From NCBI GenBank assembly GCA_024230295.1, contig JAAERN010000147.1, forward strand, positions 1 through 64,000: a DNA stretch of 64,000 bases, written 5' to 3'. The stretch comes from Planctomycetota bacterium. Its GTDB lineage: Bacteria > Planctomycetota > Phycisphaerae > Phycisphaerales > SM1A02. The notes below the pieces were generated by a model. It saw nothing but the letters and a program-made list of their open reading frames with translations. It ran no database searches and was not told where the DNA came from. A program made the translations under genes and the position numbers. Of the stretch, positions 852-13,419 are shown piece after piece (position 1 is the stretch's first letter; every line of letters begins with the position of its first letter).

Positions 852-3034
852 ATTTGGCAGCAGTGTCGCGATCGGCTGCCGTCCTGATTGCGGCCATTGC
901 TTCGGCCCGCTGCCTGGTCGTGCTGCTTCCTGAAACGTGGTTCGCGTTTGATCCCGTACTCGACCCGAAACCCTCTGTTGGCCTTGCCCCACATTGGCTC
1001 ATGGCTCTGGATGCGCTTCTCTTGGTTGCTGCATCGGTTGGCCTTGTATGCGAGGGCGTACTGCGCCGCGGTGGATCAAGGTTGAGCATGATCTTGTGGG
1101 TTATTCCGGTGCCACTCTGTTTGCAGTGGGCCTTTGTCGGTGGTCATCATGGACAGGTCGTACTTCCTTGGATGGCGGGAGTGACAGCGGCGATGGCACT
1201 GGCGCACCTGTGTCGCGATCCGCATACGCGCCGACTTGTCGTAGCAATTTTGATCGCGGTGGCCGCTCCGATCGCACTTCAGGCATTGACGCAGTGGGGA
1301 TGGGACAACCCCGACACTGCAGCGTGGTTCATTGGCCACCGCGACGAGGCGCTGGCCTTGATGGGGTTGGAGCCGGGCTCATCCGCAGCGATGGTGTACG
1401 AGCGGAGGCTTCTCGAGGGCACACCAAGCGGCTGGTTCACGAGCGCCAATCTTCTCGCGACTGTCATGGCGGCCTGCGCCATTGTCTTTGCGGGGCTGAC
1501 ATTTGCCGCTCAGCGGCAGAGCCGCACGGCTTGGGTGGGCGGCCCACTCTTTGTGGCGTGTCTTGTCTCAGCGGGCGTTGTCGGCTTGAGTGGGTCGCTG
1601 GCAGGTCTGGTGCTGCTGATTGCTGGCGTTGTGATAGCGGCGTGTGGGTTTCGATATAAGGCAATCCGCGTGTGGGGAGGTTGGATCGCAATCATGATGA
1701 TCGCCATGGCGGCGATTGCTCCAGTCGCCGCAGCTGGTTTGGAGGCCATGGGTGGTGATCAGGCGGCGGGAATTCCTGGCGCGCGGTCGATGTTGATCAG
1801 ATGGCAGTACGACATTGGCGCTGCGAGATTGGTTGCAGAGGCTCCACTCGAAGGCGTTGGGCCAGCTGGATTCCAAGACGCTTATGCATCGGTGCGAGTT
1901 CCTGGAGCCCCCGAGGAGATCACATCACCACACTCGATGATGCTTGGGTGGATGTCAACGATTGGGGTCGCAGGGCTCAGTTGGGTCTTGCTGGTGTTGG
2001 TATTGATGTGGCGAGCAGGCACATCACGCTTCGAAGAAGACGATCCGCCGTCGGTAGCGTTGGGCTTTGTGGCGCCGATCGGGGCGGTGTTGGCGATTCT
2101 TCCTTCCGCCATGGTGACATGCCAAGAGTGGGGCGATCTAGACGAAGCCTCCCAACTCGTTCGAGTGTTTGGGTGGGCCTTGATGCTTCCGCTGGCGTGG
2201 CTGGCGTGGCGTGCAATGCAGGGCATGGCCGTGAAGTGGGCGGTGTTCGTTGCCGCAGCCGTACTCATCACACAGGCGCAAGTTGAAATGAGCCTCGAGT
2301 CCTCCGCCACGGTCGTGTGGGTGCTTGCAATGCTTGGCGCAGCTGCGGCACCCATTGCAGGTCGAGGCCGCGCCATTCCCTTGGGTGGTGGCATGTTGTC
2401 GGGCGTTCTTGCAATCATTGTGGTTGCATACATCGTGCTGCCGTGGTGGAAGCAGGATCAGTTGATTGAGCGAGCGGCTCAAGCACTCGTGTACGCGCCC
2501 GGGGATGCCAGCGGACTCGAAGGCGCTGTGGTTCGCGGCAAAGCTTCCGCGTTGCTCAATGACGCATGGATCGTGCAGCATGATCCACGTGTGTTGGTGT
2601 ACGCGGCAGAGCAGCAACTCGCGGCGGCCGCAGACGCGGCATCGCGGCCGGAGATCTCAGTGTTGCATCTCGGAGCCGCAGCGAAGGCGGGCGGAGTAGC
2701 AATGGATTCTGGATCGATTGCCGGTGGTCGCCTCGCGATCGTCGCGCTCGCTGCCAAGAGCGACGTCGGGAATGACCGGGAGGCCCTGCTTGCTGCCATG
2801 ACTTTGGCGGAGCGAGTGGCTGCGGCGGATCCCAACGCGGCGATGTCCTGGGTCACCATTGCGAGGCTGGCAGATCGTTTGGGCGATCAGGCGGGAGCTT
2901 CGGCGGCATGGAAGCGAGCGATTGAATCGGACAACGCCAACACGCTCGATCCAGCGCAGCGATTACCGAAGTCCATTCGAGACGAGGCGATCGTTGTTAT
3001 CGAAGGGCGCGGGCAGCCGCCACAGCGTCAATGA
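848..3034 (+). CDS. O-antigen ligase/polymerase-like membrane protein with C-terminal repeat region
   Basis: About 728 residues. Start chosen at GTG 848 because AGGAG lies at 836-840, seven bases upstream, and the GTG overlaps the stop of the preceding transferase; a longer reading from 605 would lie entirely inside that gene. Residues 1-560 hold about a dozen hydrophobic segments. The periplasmic loop with the SPHSMMLGWMSTIG stretch followed by a long membrane helix resembles the Wzy_C/WaaL superfamily, where a conserved His-containing loop sits before a helix. The last 150 residues are soluble, alanine-rich and look like TPR-type helices, an arrangement common in planctomycete ligase-like proteins. 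By context it would polymerise or transfer the glycan started by the upstream transferase. Whether it is a polymerase or a ligase is not decidable. Its 3' end overlaps the convergent dsbD by 38 bases. Confidence 0.78.
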   Translation: MNLAAVSRSAAVLIAAIASARCLVVLLPETWFAFDPVLDPKPSVGLAPHWLMALDALLLVAASVGLVCEGVLRRGGSRLSMILWVIPVPLCLQWAFVGGHHGQVVLPWMAGVTAAMALAHLCRDPHTRRLVVAILIAVAAPIALQALTQWGWDNPDTAAWFIGHRDEALALMGLEPGSSAAMVYERRLLEGTPSGWFTSANLLATVMAACAIVFAGLTFAAQRQSRTAWVGGPLFVACLVSAGVVGLSGSLAGLVLLIAGVVIAACGFRYKAIRVWGGWIAIMMIAMAAIAPVAAAGLEAMGGDQAAGIPGARSMLIRWQYDIGAARLVAEAPLEGVGPAGFQDAYASVRVPGAPEEITSPHSMMLGWMSTIGVAGLSWVLLVLVLMWRAGTSRFEEDDPPSVALGFVAPIGAVLAILPSAMVTCQEWGDLDEASQLVRVFGWALMLPLAWLAWRAMQGMAVKWAVFVAAAVLITQAQVEMSLESSATVVWVLAMLGAAAAPIAGRGRAIPLGGGMLSGVLAIIVVAYIVLPWWKQDQLIERAAQALVYAPGDASGLEGAVVRGKASALLNDAWIVQHDPRVLVYAAEQQLAAAADAASRPEISVLHLGAAAKAGGVAMDSGSIAGGRLAIVALAAKSDVGNDREALLAAMTLAERVAAADPNAAMSWVTIARLADRLGDQAGASAAWKRAIESDNANTLDPAQRLPKSIRDEAIVVIEGRGQPPQRQ

Positions 3035-5093
3035 CCTGCTCGACGGTGTAGAAGTCGCCCTTGAAGACTTCGTCGCCGTTTGGAGCGAATACAACGAGCA
3101 GTGGGATTTGATGCCGACCAACAGCGTGCAGCATCGCATTGCCTACCGTGTTGTTGCCAGTGAGATCGATCTTGATCGGCTCGATGTCGGGCTGCGAGAG
3201 CAGGTTCGCTACTTCGTCTGTTCCCAGAACAGCTTCCTCCAGCGCCTTGCAGTTCAGGCACCACTCTGCCGTGAATTCCATGACGACGACCTTGTCGTCT
3301 TTGAGCGCGGCTTCGAACGTCGTCGGGGTGTACCAGACCCATTTGATCGGTCCATGGTCGGTCAGGGTGACGGCCAGCGCAATTCCACCTGCTGCGAGCA
3401 CTGTGCCAAGCACGCTCATCGATGTACGCCATCCAATCGCATGTCGTGGGAGAGAGATGTCCGTAGGCTCATGGCGTTCCATTTCGTGGGCTGGCGCCGA
3501 GCGAGCGGTCAGACGCCAGGTTCGAACGACCAACCAGACTCCGGCGAGCACAACGATGCCCGCGACGCCCCAGAAGTACATCCGACTCGGGGGCTGCGGC
3601 GGATCCACCATGAGCCCGCTGAATCCGACACCAATGAAGTACGCCGCGGCCGCCAACATGAGCAGTCCCATGACTTGCTTGATGAGCTCGCTTGCAGGGC
3701 CGGCCTTTGGCATCTTGTTGGTCATGCCTGGGAAAGCTGCCAGAATCAGGTATGGCACAGACATTCCGATGCCGATCGAGGCAAACGTCACCATGGTGAC
3801 CGTCGGTGGCTCGGTTGCGGCCCACGCCATGGCTGCGCCCATGAATGGCGCAGTACACGGTGTTGCCAAGACGGCCGTCATGATGCCGAAGAGGAACGAC
3901 CCGATGAGCGTGTCGTGCTTTGGGCTGACCATATAGACAGAATTTGGAAGTCGCACCGAGAATAGACCGCACATGCCAACCGCCATCGCCGCGATGATGA
4001 CGCCGATTCCGATTGTGAATGATGGGTACTGGAACAACTGGTTGCTGGCAGTGAATCCCGTCAGAAGCGCGATGGCAAGGCCGATGCCAATCCAGAATCC
4101 GATGACGCCGAGGCTCATGGCGGCACCGAGCAACAATGTTCGGGCGCGGTTCCCCGCTGAACTTGAGATCGCCATGATCTTGAGTGGAATGACCGGGAGT
4201 ACACATGGCGTCAGATTCAAGAGGAATCCGCCGAGCGCTGCCACGATGAGCAGGAGCACGACTCCGAGTGCGCCGTCGGTGTCCAGCCCGAACTCAAAGC
4301 CGAACGCGTTGAAGGTTACATCATCAGCGGCAAGATCCGGAGCGGCGTCGCCTCCTCGAATGCGTCCGAATACGCTGGCGTCAAAGCCTGCAAAGTCAGC
4401 TTGATTCTCTGCTGTCGTGGCGATTTCGCCGAGCGGCGCGATGTTGATAGTGATGGTCTCGCCATACTCAACCCATCGTGATGATGGCTCTTCACCATCC
4501 TCGGGTGGCATGGGTGTAGGCGCCAGGCAGCTGGTGTCGTCGCACGCCTGAAAGAACGGCCGCACAGTGATGGAGGCGGGGCCAGACGCTGCACCATCAG
4601 GAATCGTGACCGGAATCCACGCGATGGCTCGGCCAGCGAAAACCTTGTATGGCACGGGCGTCCCGCCAAAGCTCACACTGATTTCATGTGACTCCGGCCA
4701 TTGGGTCCAATCAGGGTGTGGGATCAGCCGGTCGTCGGATGTGGAAACGTAGATTGCAGTTGCGTAGAAATCCTCGGGCGAGCCCAATGCTGGCGGAACC
4801 TCGGGATGGTTGGTGTGGATGTGCCAGTCTGTCTGTTGGTCGAACACGACTGTGATCACAAAGTCGCCGCCCGGTGGAACGCTTGTTCGACTGGGAATTA
4901 CTTCGACGCTGACACGATCTCGAGAGTCGTAGAACTCGGGTGCTTGCTTTGGCTTAGGGGAAAATCCACCAAACCCACCAGATCCGTCGGGACCAGCCTC
5001 GCACGGGGCGGCAACATGGGCCGCGGCGGCCATACAGGCGGTCAATATCAGGGTTGTGAGTCGTGAGGGCGTGGTCCGCAGCATGTACGGCAT
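2997..5093 (-). CDS. dsbD: Thiol:disulfide interchange protein DsbD
   Basis: Passes electrons from cytoplasmic thioredoxin to periplasmic thiol proteins. The 698-residue protein has all three DsbD parts: a signal peptide (about 1-32), a periplasmic alpha domain with the CDDTSC pair (Cys184/Cys189), a membrane beta domain with LTPCVLP (Cys297) and ATPCTAPF (Cys413), and a C-terminal thioredoxin fold with the active-site WCLNC (about 611-615). The beta domain shows about eight hydrophobic helices, as in the family. Start is ATG 5093; a second ATG three codons later is equally possible. The gene stands alone on this strand, with its 3' end overlapping the convergent polymerase gene by 38 bases. 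All cysteines required for electron relay are present, so it should be functional. Confidence 0.93.
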   Translation of the reverse strand: MPYMLRTTPSRLTTLILTACMAAAAHVAAPCEAGPDGSGGFGGFSPKPKQAPEFYDSRDRVSVEVIPSRTSVPPGGDFVITVVFDQQTDWHIHTNHPEVPPALGSPEDFYATAIYVSTSDDRLIPHPDWTQWPESHEISVSFGGTPVPYKVFAGRAIAWIPVTIPDGAASGPASITVRPFFQACDDTSCLAPTPMPPEDGEEPSSRWVEYGETITINIAPLGEIATTAENQADFAGFDASVFGRIRGGDAAPDLAADDVTFNAFGFEFGLDTDGALGVVLLLIVAALGGFLLNLTPCVLPVIPLKIMAISSSAGNRARTLLLGAAMSLGVIGFWIGIGLAIALLTGFTASNQLFQYPSFTIGIGVIIAAMAVGMCGLFSVRLPNSVYMVSPKHDTLIGSFLFGIMTAVLATPCTAPFMGAAMAWAATEPPTVTMVTFASIGIGMSVPYLILAAFPGMTNKMPKAGPASELIKQVMGLLMLAAAAYFIGVGFSGLMVDPPQPPSRMYFWGVAGIVVLAGVWLVVRTWRLTARSAPAHEMERHEPTDISLPRHAIGWRTSMSVLGTVLAAGGIALAVTLTDHGPIKWVWYTPTTFEAALKDDKVVVMEFTAEWCLNCKALEEAVLGTDEVANLLSQPDIEPIKIDLTGNNTVGNAMLHAVGRHQIPLLVVFAPNGDEVFKGDFYTVEQVIDAVAAARALR

Positions 5094-5580: not shown

Positions 5581-6987
5581 ATGAACTCCGAAACAATCCG
5601 ATTCATAGATGCCATTGCTAGAGACCGCAATATTGACCGCGAGTTGTTGTTGCAGGATCTCGAGCAGGCGATGATCAGTGCGGCCCGAAAGCACTTCAAC
5701 TCACTCGATACCGAGGAGTTCGCGTGCAAGGTGGATCCCATCAACGGTCAGATCACCTTATGGCGGCTCAATGAAGATGGCACCGGCGATGTGATCCCAC
5801 TTGAGGAGCTCGGACGGATTCCCGCTCAGACTGCAAAGCAGGTCATGATCCAGCGGTTCCGTGACAACGAGCGAGCCAGCATTCTCGAGGAGTTCGGCAA
5901 GCGAATCGGAGAGATCGTCACAGGTACGGCGCATCGTTACGAAGGTGGCGCCTTGGTTGTGCAGATCGATCGAACCGAGGGTTTCATGCCCCGCTCCGAG
6001 CAGATTCCGGGAGAGCAATTCCACCAAGGCGACCGTGTGCGATGCGTCATCCGCGACGTTCGTGAGGACGGCAACCGAGTCAAGATTGTGCTCTCAAGAG
6101 GCCACGAGGACTATATTCGGCGGCTTTTCGAAGCCGAGGTCCCCGAGGTTGCAGAGCACGTCATCGAACTCAAGGCCATGGCCCGCGAGGCGGGATTCCG
6201 TACCAAGGTCGCCGTCGCATCGATTGACTCGAAGGTCGACGCCGTCGGCGCCTGCGTCGGTGTTCGTGGGAGCAGGATTCGAAATATCGTCGACGAACTT
6301 GGCGGAGAGAAGATCGACATCGTTCGGTGGAACGAATCCAGCCAGGTACTCATCGGCAATGCACTCAAGCCCGCCGAAGTCAATGAAGTCAGCCTTTGCT
6401 TTGAACTGGGCCGCGCAACAATCATCGTCCGCGAAGATCAACTGTCTTTGGCGATCGGAAGGCGGGGTCAAAATGTGCGACTGGCAGCGAGACTTACTGG
6501 ATGGGACATCGACATCCTGACACCCGAGGAATTTGCTCGCGGCCTTGAGACTCTCGAGTCGACCGTCAAGCCAATCGAAGGTGTCGAAGATTCGATGCTC
6601 GATCGGATGGGAGCGCTCGGCATGATTAGCGTCTTTGATGTCGAAGAAGTCGGCATGGACACCCTCGTCAACGATGTCGGGATTCCACAGGAACTCGCCG
6701 GCACCGTGCTTGAGTGTTGCGCTACCACCGCTCGCGAGGTGCAGGTACAGCAAGAGCGTGAGAAGGAAGAAGAAGAGCGTCGAAAAACCGAGGAAGACGC
6801 TGCTGCCGTCGCAGTAGCTGGCGAAGAAGGCGAGTCTGCTGCTGCATCCATTCTGGGTGATGGGCCACCGCCGCCAGCGGGGGATGTTTCCGAGACCAAT
6901 CAGGACGGCGAAGCCGAAGCGGCCGCCGCATCGATTCTCGATGGCGGGTCCGAAGAACCAACGAACGGGGAGAGTGCAGGCGTCTGA
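5581..6987 (+). CDS. nusA: Transcription termination/antitermination factor NusA
   Basis: RNA polymerase-associated elongation factor that modulates pausing, termination and antitermination. The 468-residue protein shows the NusA N-terminal domain (about 1-110), an S1 RNA-binding domain (about 110-180), and paired KH domains (about 195-330) with the KH signatures GVRGSRIRNIV and IGRRGQNVRLA. It ends in a helix-hairpin-helix-like segment and a charged tail of KEEEERRK type and acidic stretches. In the tail a short motif, AAASIL, occurs twice about 28 residues apart (near 420 and 448), an apparent duplication not found in standard NusA. Start ATG 5581 has a weak AGAAGG at 5564-5569. It heads the nusA-infB-rbfA series. 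Length is near the usual for non-gamma bacteria. Confidence 0.96.
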   Translation: MNSETIRFIDAIARDRNIDRELLLQDLEQAMISAARKHFNSLDTEEFACKVDPINGQITLWRLNEDGTGDVIPLEELGRIPAQTAKQVMIQRFRDNERASILEEFGKRIGEIVTGTAHRYEGGALVVQIDRTEGFMPRSEQIPGEQFHQGDRVRCVIRDVREDGNRVKIVLSRGHEDYIRRLFEAEVPEVAEHVIELKAMAREAGFRTKVAVASIDSKVDAVGACVGVRGSRIRNIVDELGGEKIDIVRWNESSQVLIGNALKPAEVNEVSLCFELGRATIIVREDQLSLAIGRRGQNVRLAARLTGWDIDILTPEEFARGLETLESTVKPIEGVEDSMLDRMGALGMISVFDVEEVGMDTLVNDVGIPQELAGTVLECCATTAREVQVQQEREKEEEERRKTEEDAAAVAVAGEEGESAAASILGDGPPPPAGDVSETNQDGEAEAAAASILDGGSEEPTNGESAGV

Positions 6988-7025: not shown

Positions 7026-9740
7026 GTGGCCAAAAAAACCACCACAATCCGTGTTCACCAGATCGCCAAGGAACTCGGCGTCACATCGAAAGATGTGGTG
7101 GCGAAGTGTTCCGAAGAAGGCGTGCCGAACATTACAAATCACATGTCCGCCATCTCAATTGGATTGGCGGCCACGATTCGGGAGTGGTTCGGCGGCGAGG
7201 CCGGAGGTGGAACTGCGGTGCAGACTGCGGCTCCGGTTGACGTCAAGCAAGCACGTGCCAAGGCGAAGAAGAAGGCGACGAGGCGGACTGGAACAGCCGA
7301 GGCTCCGCCCACTACTTCGGAAGCACCGAAAGCTCCTCCTGAGGTCGAGTCGGTGGCTGTCAAAGAGCCGCCACCTCCGAAAAAGCCAACCGGACCACCC
7401 CCATCGGCGTCGAGGGGTACTGGTGTCATAGAGCCCCCGAGTCGGCGAACGCTCGATCCAGCAGCACCGGATGGGCCGGTTCCCAATGAGCCCTCTCGCC
7501 CCGAGGTTATTGCACCACTGGGTCGCAAGCTTGACGAACCTAAGAAGACGACACTCGCTGGCCCGAAGGTCATTCGGGTCGAACAGCCTGAGAACATTCG
7601 TGCGCCGCGACCTAAGGGGCCGCCACGTGGAGGCCCTGGAGGCCCAGGCGGACCGGGCGGACCGGGCGGAGGGCAAGGCTTTGCTGGTGGTGGCCCGCCG
7701 CCGATGGATGGGACCGATCGAGGACGCACAAGCCGCCGGAACCGAAGAAGAAGTGGCGCAGCGGACAGCAAGACCGACAGCAAGTCGGGCCGTCAGCAGC
7801 AGACCCCTGGTAGCGGCCAGCGAAACTGGCGAGAGCAGGACCTTCGTGAGCGAGAGCAGCGACTCTCCCGAAGTGGAGGGTATTTCCGCTCAGTTCGTCG
7901 TGACAGTGCGAAGAAGGCATCGGGACCGACAGGTTCCAAGGCGAAGTCGATTGTGGATCTTGGAGGATCAATCACACTTCCCGAGCCCATCACGATCAAA
8001 GCGCTCAGTGCGGCGAGTGGCGTCAAGACGCGGAATATCCTTCGATGGCTGATGAACGAGGAACACGACGCAACAATTAACTCGACGCTCGACCGCGATA
8101 TCGCGATGGAGTGCATGCTCTCGTTCGGGGTCGAACTTGAAGTTATCGAGGCGAAGACAGAGGAAGATAAGATTGCCGAGTCGTTCTCAGATCGTGACAT
8201 GAAGGATGAGCGGCCACGCTCACCGGTCGTGACGATTCTTGGGCACGTCGATCACGGCAAGACGACGCTCCTTGACGGCATCCGTAACGCAAACGTGGCG
8301 GACGGCGAGGCTGGCGGAATCACGCAGGCCACAAGCGCGTTCCGTGTCCCTGTGACGGTCGGCGACGATGATCACATTGTGACCTTCATCGATACGCCTG
8401 GTCACGAGGCATTCACCGAAATGCGGGCGCGTGGTGCAAAAGTAACGGACATCGTGGTTCTCGTGGTTGCGGCCGATGATGGTGTGATGCCGCAGACAAT
8501 CGAGTCGATCAACCACGCCAAGGCCGCCGATGTACCGATCGTCGTGGCGCTCAACAAGATCGACAAGCCCGAGGCGACCGACGGCAATATTCAGCGCATT
8601 CTTGGTCAGCTCGCGGAGCACGAACTCAATCCGGTGGAGTGGGGCGGCGATACTGAGGTTGTTCGAATGGCGGCCGTCAAGGGTGAGGGTATTCAGGACT
8701 TGCTGGAGATTCTCGACCTGCAGTCGCAGTTGCTTGAATTGACTGGCGACTTCGATGGTCCTGCCGAGGGCACTGTGCTTGAGGCGCAATTGGAAGAGGG
8801 TCGTGGCGCCGTTGCAAGCATTCTTGTGCAGCAGGGCAAACTCAAGAAGGGCGACTATCTGGTGGCAGGCCGTGGCTACGGTCGGGCGCGAGATATTGTT
8901 GGCGATCGTGGCGACCGGATCACCGAGGCATTCCCCTCCTTCCCGGTGACGATCTCGGGACTTGGAGAAGTTCCGGATGCGGGTGATCGCGTGTTTGTCG
9001 TCAAGAACCAGCGCGCCGCCGAGTCCGCCGCGAAAGAACGCGTTGCGGCCGAGCGGGAGCGATCGTTAGCCCGTGAGCGTGTAACGCTCGACAATATTCT
9101 GGAGCACATGACCGAGGCCGGGAAGAAAGAACTCCCGATCATCCTGAAGGCCGATGTTCAAGGATCGGTCGAGACTATTACAGCATCGCTCGCAAAGATG
9201 ACCAACGAAGAAGTTCGGGTGATGGTCAAGCATGCTGCGGTAGGTGGCGTATCCGAATCAGATATTGCACTCGCCGAGGCATGCGGAGCCATCGTGGTCG
9301 GTTTCAATGTGACGGCGACGGGCAAGGTTCGGCGCATGGCCGAAGACAACGGCGTCGACATTCGATACTACGACGTGATCTACGACATTACCGACGATAT
9401 CGAGAAGGCCATTCTGGGCATGCTCGAGCCGGAGCACCGTATCGAGATTCTCGGCCAGGCCGAGGTTCGAGAAGTCTTCCGCATTACGAAGGTCGGCATG
9501 GTCGCCGGTTGTTATGTCACGAGCGGGAACATCAAGAGAAACGGCCTGATTCGTGTCACGAGAGATGAAATCGTCGTGGAGAACGACAGGAAGCTGTCCC
9601 AACTCAAGCGATTCAAGGACGATGCCAAAGAAGTGAAGTCCGGTCAGGAATGCGGCATGCTTATTGATGGTTACGACGACATCAAGGAAGGCGATGTGCT
9701 GGAGTGCTATGTCACGCATGAAGTCACTCCCGGAACCTGA
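7026..9740 (+). CDS. infB: Translation initiation factor IF-2
   Basis: GTPase that places initiator tRNA on the 30S subunit. GTG start 7026 has GGGAG at 7015-7019, six bases away. The 904-residue protein has an IF2_N domain (about 7-58), a long low-complexity region rich in Pro, Gly and Lys with a GGPGGPGG run near residue 205, a second IF2_N-like helix set (about 320-380), then the G domain with [13 protein letters not shown] (G1, near 405), DTPGHEAF (G3) and NKIDKPEA (G4), and the C-terminal EF-Tu-like domain II and IF2-specific domains. All nucleotide-binding motifs are intact. The linker composition is typical of planctomycete and myxobacterial IF-2. Follows nusA by 38 bases and precedes rbfA. 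Confidence 0.97.
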
Positions 9741-9761: not shown

Positions 9762-10145
9762 ATGACACGGCACCAGGAACAGATTGACGCCGTCGTGCAA
9801 CGAGGCTTGCAGAAGATTCTGAGCAAGGGTCTGAACGACCCTCGCGTGCGTGGTCTGGTAACAGTGACACAGGTCAGCGTCAGCCCTGACTCAAGCATGG
9901 CGAAGGTAGGGTGTTCGGTGATTCCGGCGGAACACACGAAGGGCTCGCTTCACGGGCTGAATGCCGCGGCCGGTTGGATTGGTAGGCGGCTTGGCGAGGA
10001 AGTTCGTATGCGTCGCATTCCTCGACTTCGGTTCGTAGAAGACGCGTCCATCAAGCGAGAGTCCCGAGTTCTCGGGGCCATTCAAGAAGCGGTACGGCGT
10101 GAAGATGCCGAGGCGGACCGCGGGCAGAGGGAATCCGATTCATGA
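9762..10145 (+). CDS. rbfA: Ribosome-binding factor A
   Basis: Small KH-fold protein needed for late 30S maturation and 16S 5' end processing. Start taken at ATG 9762, with GGGAG at 9750-9754, seven bases upstream; a TTG at 9744 would overlap the Shine-Dalgarno sequence. The 127-residue product starts with TRHQEQIDAVVQRGL, contains NDPRVRGLVTVTQVSVSPD (the family's conserved DPR and VSxD strand) and IPRLRFVEDASIKRESR, which corresponds to the PxLxFxxDxSxxxxxxI motif of RbfA. It lies 21 bases after infB, the usual order, and overlaps the next gene by four bases (ATGA). Confidence 0.93.
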   Translation: MTRHQEQIDAVVQRGLQKILSKGLNDPRVRGLVTVTQVSVSPDSSMAKVGCSVIPAEHTKGSLHGLNAAAGWIGRRLGEEVRMRRIPRLRFVEDASIKRESRVLGAIQEAVRREDAEADRGQRESDS

Positions 10146-11212
10146 AGAACTCGAAGGAATACGCAGCGAAGTTTGCTTCTCAGATCAAGAAGCTCAAGAA
10201 GCGATCAGACCCGCTCGACATGTCGGGTCCGCTTGAAGTGCTGATCTATTCGCAACTCCTATGGGAGTCGAATGCCTCTCAGGCTGATGAGGCGTGGGAC
10301 AGTTTGCTGGCGGCACGACTGGACTGGCACGAGATCAGGGTCTCGACACCTGGTGAGATCGCCGAGATGTGTGGTGACACATCGGCGGAGGCTCTCGATC
10401 GCGGCGCTCGGCTCAAGGCGATGTTGAACCATCTCTATCAGCGGCATCATGAGGTGACAATTGATCCCGAACTTGAACTCGGCAAGCGGGATCTCCGTGC
10501 CTCGATCGAGGCGCTTGATGGTATGACGCCCTATGTCGCAACACGTTGGTTGCTGCTGTGTGGGGAGATCGGCGGTGTTCCCGTTGACGAACAGTTGTGT
10601 TGGATGCTCGGGAATGCGGGCTGTATCGACGATTCTGCGTCAGTGGATGAGGTATCCGCGTGGGTTAGCCGGCAGGTCAAGTCGGATGACGCGTATCGCG
10701 TGCATGCAACCTTGCAGGCGTGGGTGAACGGGCAATCGGATCGTGTTTCCAAGCGTCGAGCAAAGGACCTTCAGGCTGCAGAGCGGGCTGCCAAAAAGAA
10801 GCGTGGGGACATCATCGCAAGCCGCAATAAGGCTCAAAAAGTGGCTGCAGAGAAGCGAAAAGAGGCTGCCGAACGCGCGGCTGCCAGGAAGGCGGCAGCG
10901 GCCCTTGCAGAGCAAGAGGCTTTGGAGCAGGCCGCCAAGAAGACTACGAAGAAGACCGCTAAGAAGACCACCAAGAAGACCACTAAAAAGGCTACTACAA
11001 AGACCACGAAGAAGACCTCGAAGAAGGTTGCCAAGAAGCCCGCCAAGAAGGCCGCCAAGAAGACCACCAAGAAGACCACCAAGAAGCCTGCCAAGAAGAC
11101 CGCCAAGAAGCCTGCCAAGAAGGCAGCAAAGAAGACCGCCAAGAAGACCGCCAAGAAGGCAGCCAAGAAGAAGACTTCTAAGAAACGCAGCACATCGCGA
11201 AGCCGAAAGTGA
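10142..11212 (+). CDS. Endonuclease III-like helix-hairpin-helix protein with histone H1-like Lys-rich tail
   Basis: 356 residues in two halves. Residues about 28-160 follow the endonuclease III fold: a helical start (GPLEVLIYSQLL, similar to the opening helix of Nth), then a hairpin LDGMTPYVATRWLLLCG and VPVDEQLCWML, equivalent to LPGVGRK...AVDTH of E. coli Nth. Spacing is identical (18 residues) but the catalytic Lys is Tyr131, whereas the Asp (Asp149) is kept. No C-terminal iron-sulfur cysteines follow. Residues about 265-356 are almost only Lys, Thr and Ala in KKTTKK/KKPAKK repeats, as in bacterial histone H1-like tails. This suggests a DNA-binding protein without AP-lyase activity; it could be structural or a glycosylase. 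Translationally coupled to rbfA (ATGA) and to the next gene (GTGA). The fold assignment is by eye. Confidence 0.7.
   Translation: MKNSKEYAAKFASQIKKLKKRSDPLDMSGPLEVLIYSQLLWESNASQADEAWDSLLAARLDWHEIRVSTPGEIAEMCGDTSAEALDRGARLKAMLNHLYQRHHEVTIDPELELGKRDLRASIEALDGMTPYVATRWLLLCGEIGGVPVDEQLCWMLGNAGCIDDSASVDEVSAWVSRQVKSDDAYRVHATLQAWVNGQSDRVSKRRAKDLQAAERAAKKKRGDIIASRNKAQKVAAEKRKEAAERAAARKAAAALAEQEALEQAAKKTTKKTAKKTTKKTTKKATTKTTKKTSKKVAKKPAKKAAKKTTKKTTKKPAKKTAKKPAKKAAKKTAKKTAKKAAKKKTSKKRSTSRSRK
10930..11190 (+). repeat. Low-complexity tandem AAGAAGACC-type repeat coding a Lys/Thr/Ala tail
   Basis: About 260 bases built from imperfect repeats of AAGAAGACC, ACCAAGAAG and GCCAAGAAG. They encode the basic tail of the preceding protein. 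Such DNA can expand or contract by slippage, so tail length likely differs between strains. The opposite strand is open across it (LLGGLLGG-type) only because of the repeat composition. Confidence 0.85.
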
Positions 11213-12645
11213 TTCTTGGTGTACTGACCTTGGTCGTGTGCGGATCAGCCACTCCTGGAAGCGGTGAGTGGGCCGTCTCAGAGTTGGAGAGACTCGAGAT
11301 CGACCGGCCCGAAGAAGGGCCACCATTGTGCTGGAGCCACGCCGCCTTTCGAAGCAGCGCGCTTGAGTTGATTCGCGGTCGTGAGGCTGAGCATGACGGG
11401 AATCAACGCGAGGCGGCTGTGGCCTACGGCGAAGCCATTTTATTCGATCCGACCAACGAGACCGCATGGCTCGGCCTGGCCAAGATCGCATCTCAGAATC
11501 GAAACCGAAAACTCGCAGACAAGGCATGGGCCAAGCGTCTTGAATTGTGCCCAAGGGACGTCAATGCACTTCGAGCAACTGCCGAGCTTGCATTTTTTCA
11601 GGCGCGGTATAGCGATGCCGTGGGACTGCTGTTGCGGCATCGCGCAGAATCGCCAGACTTGGACGAAATAGAACGTGCCCGATTGGATGCAGTGATCGGA
11701 ACCTCGCTTGCCGAGATTGGCGAAGTTGAATCTGCGACGGCAATTCATGGGCAGGCTGAGGAGCAGCTTCGATTGCTTGCCAACACGATTGCGGTTGACC
11801 ACTCAACTCGGCGAGAATGGGAATGGCTAATCCGGCAGCTCGCCGCCGTGAAGTCGACGGATCTTGCTTTGGTTGCTGCGCGTGCGAGATTGGAGAGCGG
11901 GAAACTCGCCATGTCAGCAGATCGTGGTCGGATGACGTCCATGTGCATCGTACTGAATGCACTGGCCCGCGATGCTGCGGCGACCACGGAACTGATCGAG
12001 TCACTTCCGAGTGACGATCTTCGGCTCCGATTGGAGTTTCGTGCTCCGTTGTCTCCGGCGATGATGCGATACCGCGCCTCGACGATTCATGCCACCCTTG
12101 GCGACCGTTCTGGCGCAATCGACCTGTTGAATGATGCAGTGCACTTGGATCCTGATGTGCCGGGTGTGCTCAACAATCTCGGGTACATGTTGCTTGAGCA
12201 GGATCCGAACTCGGTGGACGCCGCGAGGTATCTAGAGCGGGCGTTGGAACTTGATTCGGAGGATGCCGGTACGCTCGACAGCGTGGGGTACCTTCGGCTA
12301 TTGCAAAGCCGTATTCAGGATGGGCCTCAGGGGCGTGGTGCTTTGAGCCTTCTGCGAGACGCCACTCGCCGCACCGACCATATGGATCCAATCATCCTGC
12401 TGCACCTCGGAGATGCAGAGCAGGCGGCTGGCCTCGATCAGGCAGCTCGATCGACGTGGAGGCATGCGTTGGCACTCATGGAGCATCCGGAGTTTCAGGC
12501 GGAGCGCACGCGTTCATACGACGGTGTGCAGGGCGAGGACTGGGGGATTCACGTTGTCCCTTCGGCGGATCTGTATCATCTTGAGTTTGGTGATGTCGCG
12601 ACTGCACTTCGCCAGCGACTTGCCGAACAGACTTTAGAAGACTGA
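11209..12645 (+). CDS. Secreted or lipid-anchored TPR-repeat protein
   Basis: 478 residues. GTG start 11209 overlaps the stop of the preceding gene (GTGA). A short hydrophobic N-terminus (about residues 1-16, with VVCGS) could be a signal peptide, possibly a weak lipobox. From about residue 55 the protein consists of helix pairs of TPR type, for example AAVAYGEAILFDPTNETAWL, ALDSVGYLRLL-like helices and the segment GVLNNLGYMLLEQDPNS, which is the classic TPR consensus. A late segment GTLDSVGYLRLLQS matches the pattern of TPR proteins that process membrane peptides. No enzyme motif is present. Role: protein-protein scaffold, partner unknown. It closes a run of overlapping genes begun at rbfA and precedes yebC by 24 bases. 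Confidence 0.75.
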   Translation: MILGVLTLVVCGSATPGSGEWAVSELERLEIDRPEEGPPLCWSHAAFRSSALELIRGREAEHDGNQREAAVAYGEAILFDPTNETAWLGLAKIASQNRNRKLADKAWAKRLELCPRDVNALRATAELAFFQARYSDAVGLLLRHRAESPDLDEIERARLDAVIGTSLAEIGEVESATAIHGQAEEQLRLLANTIAVDHSTRREWEWLIRQLAAVKSTDLALVAARARLESGKLAMSADRGRMTSMCIVLNALARDAAATTELIESLPSDDLRLRLEFRAPLSPAMMRYRASTIHATLGDRSGAIDLLNDAVHLDPDVPGVLNNLGYMLLEQDPNSVDAARYLERALELDSEDAGTLDSVGYLRLLQSRIQDGPQGRGALSLLRDATRRTDHMDPIILLHLGDAEQAAGLDQAARSTWRHALALMEHPEFQAERTRSYDGVQGEDWGIHVVPSADLYHLEFGDVATALRQRLAEQTLED

Positions 12646-12669: not shown

Positions 12670-13419
12670 ATGGCCGGTCACAGCAAGTGGGCGAACATCA
12701 AGCATCGCAAGGCACGCCAGGACGCCGTCAAGGGCAAGGCCTGGTCCAAGGCTAGCCGTGCCATCATGGCGGCGGTCAAGCAGGGCGATCCTGATCCCGA
12801 TACGAATCTTAAGTTGCGGTATGCCATCGAAGACGCCAAGAGCGTCAACATGCCCAAAGACACCATCAAGAAGGCCATTGAGAAGGCAAGTGGTGAAGGT
12901 AATGATGGGGCGACGTATCAGGATGTCAGATACGAGGGCTATGGCGCTGGTGGTATTGCCATCATCGTCGACTGCCTGACAGAAAATGTGCAGCGGACTG
13001 CGCCCATCGTTCGCCATGCGTTCGAGAAGCACGGCGGGAATCTCGCCAAGACGGGCGCGGTGTCGTTCGGATTCCACACCAAGGGTGTCATCCTTATTGA
13101 AGATGGAAAGACGACGGAAGAGCAGTTGATGGAAGTTGCGCTCGAAGCCGGAGCCGAAGACATCGTCGAGCATGGAGGCGGGTTCGAAGTGACGACCGAT
13201 GTGCCCTCCTTTATCGCGGTCAAAGATGCGATTGATGCAGCAGGAATCGAAACCGTCAGTGGCGAGATCACGATGGTTCCGGATACGACCGTGGCGTGCG
13301 ATGCAGATCTAGCCGCGAAGGTTCTGAAGCTTATCGACATCATCGAAGAGTGCGATGATGTTCAGAAGGTCCACAGCAACGCCGATATCTCGGAAGAGGT
13401 CATGGCTTCACTCGAATGA
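12670..13419 (+). CDS. yebC: YebC/PmpR-family DNA-binding and translation-associated protein
   Basis: 249 residues, the usual length for this family. ATG 12670 follows a strong AGGAGG at about 12656-12661. The N-terminus MAGHSKWANIKHRKA is the family hallmark, followed by NMPKDTIKKAIEKASG and YEGYGAGGIAIIVDCLTEN, also diagnostic. The fold is three domains around an acidic cavity. Family members act as transcription regulators; some (for example in Bacillus and mitochondria) relieve ribosome stalling. In many bacteria yebC lies next to ruvC; here it is between a TPR gene and acylphosphatase, with which it overlaps by four bases (ATGA). Confidence 0.96.
   Translation: MAGHSKWANIKHRKARQDAVKGKAWSKASRAIMAAVKQGDPDPDTNLKLRYAIEDAKSVNMPKDTIKKAIEKASGEGNDGATYQDVRYEGYGAGGIAIIVDCLTENVQRTAPIVRHAFEKHGGNLAKTGAVSFGFHTKGVILIEDGKTTEEQLMEVALEAGAEDIVEHGGGFEVTTDVPSFIAVKDAIDAAGIETVSGEITMVPDTTVACDADLAAKVLKLIDIIEECDDVQKVHSNADISEEVMASLE

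Follow-up and report, generated by a model that had tools for sequence, protein, structure and literature searches.

What becomes of a DNA repair fold once its catalytic lysine is gone and a basic tail is attached to it? This question is raised by a gene directly downstream of rbfA in a 64,000-nucleotide stretch of Planctomycetota DNA (order Phycisphaerales), which is referred to as the window. The open reading frame starts with ATG, encodes 356 amino acids and has the same limits as in an earlier note made from the letters of the window. That note had described the product as an endonuclease III-like fold without the catalytic Lys, fused to a histone H1-like tail. The gene and its family are called X for short, and the features of the locus are collected in Table 1.

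Table 1. Coordinates of X, its parts and its neighbors in the window.
Feature	Position	Strand	Basis and remarks
nusA	5581..6987	+	Pfam
infB (translation initiation factor IF2)	7026..9740	+	Pfam
rbfA	9762..10145	+	PF02033, 85.4 bits; directly upstream of X
ATGA overlap, rbfA stop and X start	10142..10145	+	Sequence; same offset in most Phycisphaerales loci
X (356-aa putative EndoIII-derived protein with basic tail)	10142..11212	+	ORF; all 61 genomes searched in the order have a homologue
Predicted HhH-GPD core, residues 1-200	10142..10741	+	AF2 model, Foldseek, VIA, profile; net charge -11
Family-specific motif D61-W-H/N-E/D-x-R66-V67	10322..10342	+	Column statistics
Hairpin, counterpart of the Nth active site, residues 125-149	10514..10588	+	Alignments, conservation
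Linker rich in Ala/Lys/Arg/Glu, residues 201-264	10742..10933	+	Composition
Lys/Thr/Ala repeat tail, residues 265-356	10934..11209	+	Composition, codon pattern; net charge +46
TPR protein	11209..12645	+	ORF, Pfam TPR; overlaps X stop (GTGA)
yebC/TACO1-family gene	12670..13419	+	PF01709, 182 bits; synteny

Fold of the core and its hairpin

Single-sequence searches of X against Pfam, NCBIfam and the PDB returned nothing useful, and only family profiles reached endonuclease III (EndoIII). The window protein is unmatched by PF00730 (HhH-GPD), TIGR01083 (Nth), TIGR01084 (MutY) and NF053634 (MonDNAglycDR2438). Two of 63 family members match PF00730, with E values up to 0.01, and 52 of the 63 match NF053634 weakly. 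Relatives scanned singly reach at most 40.4 bits with TIGR01083, which has a cut-off of 211.7 bits, and at most 71.5 bits with NF053634, which has a cut-off of 400 bits. A profile of 31 homologues compared with the PDB found Deinococcus EndoIII-1 (E 3e-8). The profile of 63 phylum-wide members found EndoIII at E 1e-34, followed by EndoIII-3, ROS1, bacterial Nth and MutY.

The AF2 model of residues 1-200 has a pLDDT of 77.4 and a pTM of 0.72, and is all-helical. Foldseek searches with this model list EndoIII structures first (EndoIII-1 of D. radiodurans, E 3.8e-7), and VIA gives a Z score of 18.1 to 4uob over 198 residues and of 17.0 to 1orn. By these two independent tests, family profiles and predicted structure, the core of X has the EndoIII (HhH-GPD) fold, the two-domain, all-helical glycosylase fold of that superfamily. 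The earlier note had named the fold by eye and had made its case depend on an HhH-GPD prediction, which is what was obtained. A single-sequence model of the full protein has a poor pLDDT of 55.8 and was used solely as a hint of a helical linker; residues 201-264 form one long helix in it.

The Nth hairpin has its counterpart in residues 125-149 (LDGMTPYVATRWLLLCGEIGGVPVD), and the spacing between the Lys and Asp sites is identical to that of E. coli-type Nth. Tyr131 falls on the Nth Lys and Asp149 on the Nth Asp, both in the profile alignment and in the multiple alignment. The profile alignment of the hairpin has an E value of 3.6e-6, and a column-shuffled control fails (E 0.46), in agreement with the by-eye alignment of the earlier note. 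In the L-x-G-h-G hairpin, the first Gly and the Asp are present, and the second Gly is replaced by Thr129. Across 104 aligned family members, Gly127 is found in 70 and Asp in 63. Neither the second hairpin Gly nor the Thr-His that follows the Asp in Nth ("VDTH") is left.

The missing Lys extends to the homologues. No family member (0/104) has Lys at the catalytic site, as opposed to 25/25 Nth proteins of the same phylum. The site is occupied by Phe in 40 members, Tyr in 25 and other residues in the rest, and is Tyr or Phe in all 64 members from Phycisphaerae and the groups f32, f73 and f82. To read the missing Lys as a loss of activity is too strong, because all six MutY proteins examined from Planctomycetota also have Tyr in this column and X has the catalytic Asp. 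The Asp site itself varies (D 63, T 21, S 6, N 5), and Asp is lost in 41 of the 104 members. All members from the order of the window retain Asp149 (42/42), versus 0/15 other Phycisphaerae, and those 15 hold the same operon place. From these residue counts, a site that takes D, T, S or N would fit a helix N-cap and not a strictly catalytic Asp.

Iron-sulfur motif, tail and a new conserved motif

The window protein has Cys only at positions 77, 140, 153 and 161, and thus lacks the C-X6-C-X2-C-X5-C iron-sulfur (Fe-S) motif, as the earlier note had said. When searched with slightly relaxed spacing, the motif is kept in 30/107 members, all outside Phycisphaerae and f32, f73 and f82. Because these deep members keep it, its absence in the lineage of the window is a loss. 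The motif is seen in L070 (1474-2367), L072 (1495-2265) and many of L075-L111, though the catalytic Lys is gone there; the cluster motif thus outlived the lyase residue.

The tail contains 43 Lys, 21 Thr and 16 Ala among its 92 residues, in agreement with the Lys/Thr/Ala tail of about 90 residues first noticed. It is a Lys/Ala-rich, low-complexity sequence, as in histone H1-like and nucleoid proteins. Its codon pattern occurs in this gene only within the 2.7 Mb genome (8 overlapping matches), and such tails as a genome-wide habit were therefore rejected. Across the 107 members, tail length ranges from 0 to about 290 residues; a Lys-rich tail of at least 20 residues is present in 61 of them and the tail is absent from four members of family f2. 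The net charge over the aligned region is -15 for the window protein, with a median of -6.5 in its order, compared with +2 for Nth and +3.5 for MutY. Close to the end of its ORF (2917-4242, reversed strand), the L103 homologue has a Lys/Ala tail in which one part reads as the letter X. This run may stem from N runs in the assembly or from masking, as expected across repeats.

A motif, D-(W)-N/H-E/D-x-R-V, is nearly invariant in the 104 aligned members. By column statistics, Arg66 is found in 104/104, Asn or His63 in 104, Asp61 in 100, Leu95 in 100 and Val67 in 96, and these residues are without conservation in ordinary Nth. Such near-invariant residues outside the catalytic pocket indicate that constraint has shifted from the pocket to another site. 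In the order of secondary structure, the motif follows the helix after the first DNA-intercalating loop, and this helix order would put it at the barrel end opposite the DNA-intercalating loops. The protein is under purifying selection, with a pN/pS of 0.10-0.33 in the core and 0.32-0.50 in the linker and tail.

Distribution, ancestry and gene neighborhood

All 61 genomes searched, from the genus, family and order of the window, have a homologue, which is single-copy in all but one. In the wider phylum, roughly 215 of 294 Planctomycetota genomes, many of which are metagenome assemblies, have a match to the X profile at E 1e-28 or better. This number was counted by hand, with a cut set above the background of ordinary Nth; this cut is stronger than the best match (1e-25) in family f50, whose members were all without a match in a separate search. 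A count of 293 of 294 genomes with a profile match was discarded; it overstates presence, since ordinary Nth also matches the profile. Profile scores separate X (at least 137 bits) from 31 Nth/MutY proteins (at most 78 bits). Forty loci were retrieved from the phylum search, almost every one from a GTDB family of its own, and 39 of them are family members. The single odd fusion suggested by the window alone is thus replaced by a phylum-wide family, in which deep members have the Fe-S motif and the tail is variable or absent. Genomes of family f50 and genome G439 (family f32), of 92-100% completeness, seem to be without the gene and offer a natural comparison for its role.

The genome of the window has its own Nth and MutY, which makes X an extra paralogue. 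In a phylogenetic tree, X together with D. radiodurans EndoIII-1 is set apart from other Nth with a support of 0.99. The separation of X alone from EndoIII-1 has a support of 0.018, where EndoIII-1 is one truncated sequence and the only outside one. The family is spread over most of Planctomycetota, and we favor, with some reservation, that it was vertically inherited and came from the branch nearest to Deinococcus EndoIII-1. Neither Pfam nor NCBIfam has an entry for this uncurated family, no paper describing it was found in the open-licence literature, and its members are likely unnamed or misnamed as endonuclease III.

The gene order in the window is nusA, infB, rbfA, X, TPR, yebC and acylphosphatase (Pfam). 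X and rbfA, which the earlier note had as co-translated, overlap in an ATGA, and PF02033 confirms RbfA. Homologues beside rbfA in other Phycisphaerae, which the note had suggested looking for, were found: all Phycisphaerae loci with sufficient flanking sequence have rbfA immediately before X (57/57), and so do 7/7 loci of f32, f73 and f82. Over all loci, rbfA is directly upstream and on the same strand in 67/105. The usual neighbor in the remaining classes is yebC, downstream of X in 17 of the 39 loci that were sampled one per other family. Throughout the phylum, yebC and TPR genes are recurrent neighbors of X. Neither rbfA nor yebC occurs in the 1.5 kb flanks of 32 Nth/MutY control loci, and Pfam tallies of the other neighbors of X (SRP54, S16, HisG, TPR) did not single out any repair partner.

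Known relatives and possible functions of X

Both the profile search (E 1e-34) and Foldseek rank D. radiodurans EndoIII-1 (DR2438; NF053634; 4unf, 8a5f) first. It shares the DW at the start of the X motif region (GDWDAIT). It differs from X in that Lys, Asp and Fe-S cluster are all retained, and it is an active glycosylase (PMC9268735, PMC10523315). D. radiodurans EndoIII-3 (4uob) has the highest structural score. In EndoIII-3 the fold is kept, EndoIII activity is not detectable and damaged DNA is bound strongly; what sets it apart from X is that Lys, Asp and Fe-S cluster are present together (PMC9268735). Ordinary Nth (TIGR01083, PF00730) and MutY (TIGR01084) share the fold, the position of the hairpin and the Asp site with X, and MutY also has the Tyr. 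X differs from them in that single members are missed by the Pfam HhH-GPD model, the pocket residues are unconserved, the conserved motif is another one and the neighborhood is different. At Foldseek rank 19 is S. pombe Mag2 (4b21-4b23), a glycosylase homologue solved on abasic DNA. Mag2 binds DNA without catalysis, and a possible likeness of X to it in mode of action serves as a lead.

The absence of the Lys throughout the family, the loss of the Fe-S motif, the new near-invariant motif and the place in the operon together lead us to prefer, though with no great certainty, X as a non-lyase descendant of EndoIII that was recruited to a new function in Planctomycetota and is probably non-enzymatic. 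As such, X would no longer be an enzyme. The acidic core would act as a binding scaffold, with the new motif holding a partner, and the Lys-rich tail would hold nucleic acid irrespective of sequence. As some orthologues (family f2) have a short tail or none, the function shared by the family does not depend on it. The invariance of Asp149 in the order is a counterpoint, as it is not obviously needed by a dead enzyme. If this reading is true, X is a phylum-wide case of a repair-enzyme fold that lost its chemistry and gained another invariant site. The intermediate states would be visible, with the Lys absent everywhere, the Fe-S motif present in deep lineages and the Asp lost in some orders only.

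The earlier note had proposed a chromatin or repair protein. This is one of several readings, and it had left the acidic core (-15) and the conserved neighbors infB, rbfA and yebC, all translation genes, unweighed. Given the translation operon and the acidic core, a role with RNA or the ribosome appears about as likely as a role with DNA. A specific form of the preferred reading, not exclusive of it, is that X is an RNA-binding factor in translation or ribosome assembly that works with RbfA, IF2 or YebC and has its Lys-rich tail on rRNA; we consider this form less likely than not. It draws on the rbfA and yebC linkage and on the empty flanks of the Nth/MutY control loci, as well as on YebC, which a passage in PMC12234827 describes as an RNA-binding protein that aids the translation of proline stretches. 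Such a neighborhood is indirect evidence, however, as operons of this kind carry unrelated passengers. Moreover, we know of no precedent for an HhH-GPD fold in translation. That, early in the history of Planctomycetota, the repair fold became a core but non-enzymatic factor of the translation operon (RbfA, IF2, YebC), with the new D-W-N-E-x-R-V site kept invariant and a Lys-rich, RNA-binding tail often added, is a rather doubtful extension.

The invariance of Asp149 in the order of the window also leaves room for a monofunctional DNA glycosylase. Tyr131 would replace the lyase Lys, Asp149 would activate base removal and the tail would help scanning. The Tyr of MutY is in line with this, and Mig, a thymine glycosylase, also has a Tyr in place of the lyase Lys. 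The nearest structure, EndoIII-1 of D. radiodurans, mostly acts in this way (PMC10523315). However, the orthologues in the same place in other Phycisphaerae are without the Asp, the Thr-His and the second hairpin Gly are gone, the core is acidic and the genome already has Nth and MutY, and we regard an active glycosylase as unlikely. It is similarly improbable that X is a nucleoid (chromatin-like) protein, whose core would recognize structured or damaged DNA and whose tail would compact DNA as histone H1-like tails do: the HhH-GPD core and the tail composition favor it, and passages in PMC9239181 and PMC2848022 describe the bacterial histone H1-like proteins AlgP and Hc2 with Lys-rich repeats, but the f2 members have no tail and many orthologues a short one, the core is negatively charged, the context is one of translation genes, and such tails could equally bind RNA or other polyanions.

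The one fetched locus that was left out of the family, L092, encodes a different protein (1738-3588, minus strand, contig C5 of genome G192). This 617-aa protein is a fusion of an HhH-GPD domain (PF00730, 31 bits) and a C-5 cytosine DNA methylase (PF00145, 222 bits). It has Tyr at the Lys site and keeps the Asp and the Fe-S motif. From its domains, it may be a methylase that carries a mismatch glycosylase of its own.
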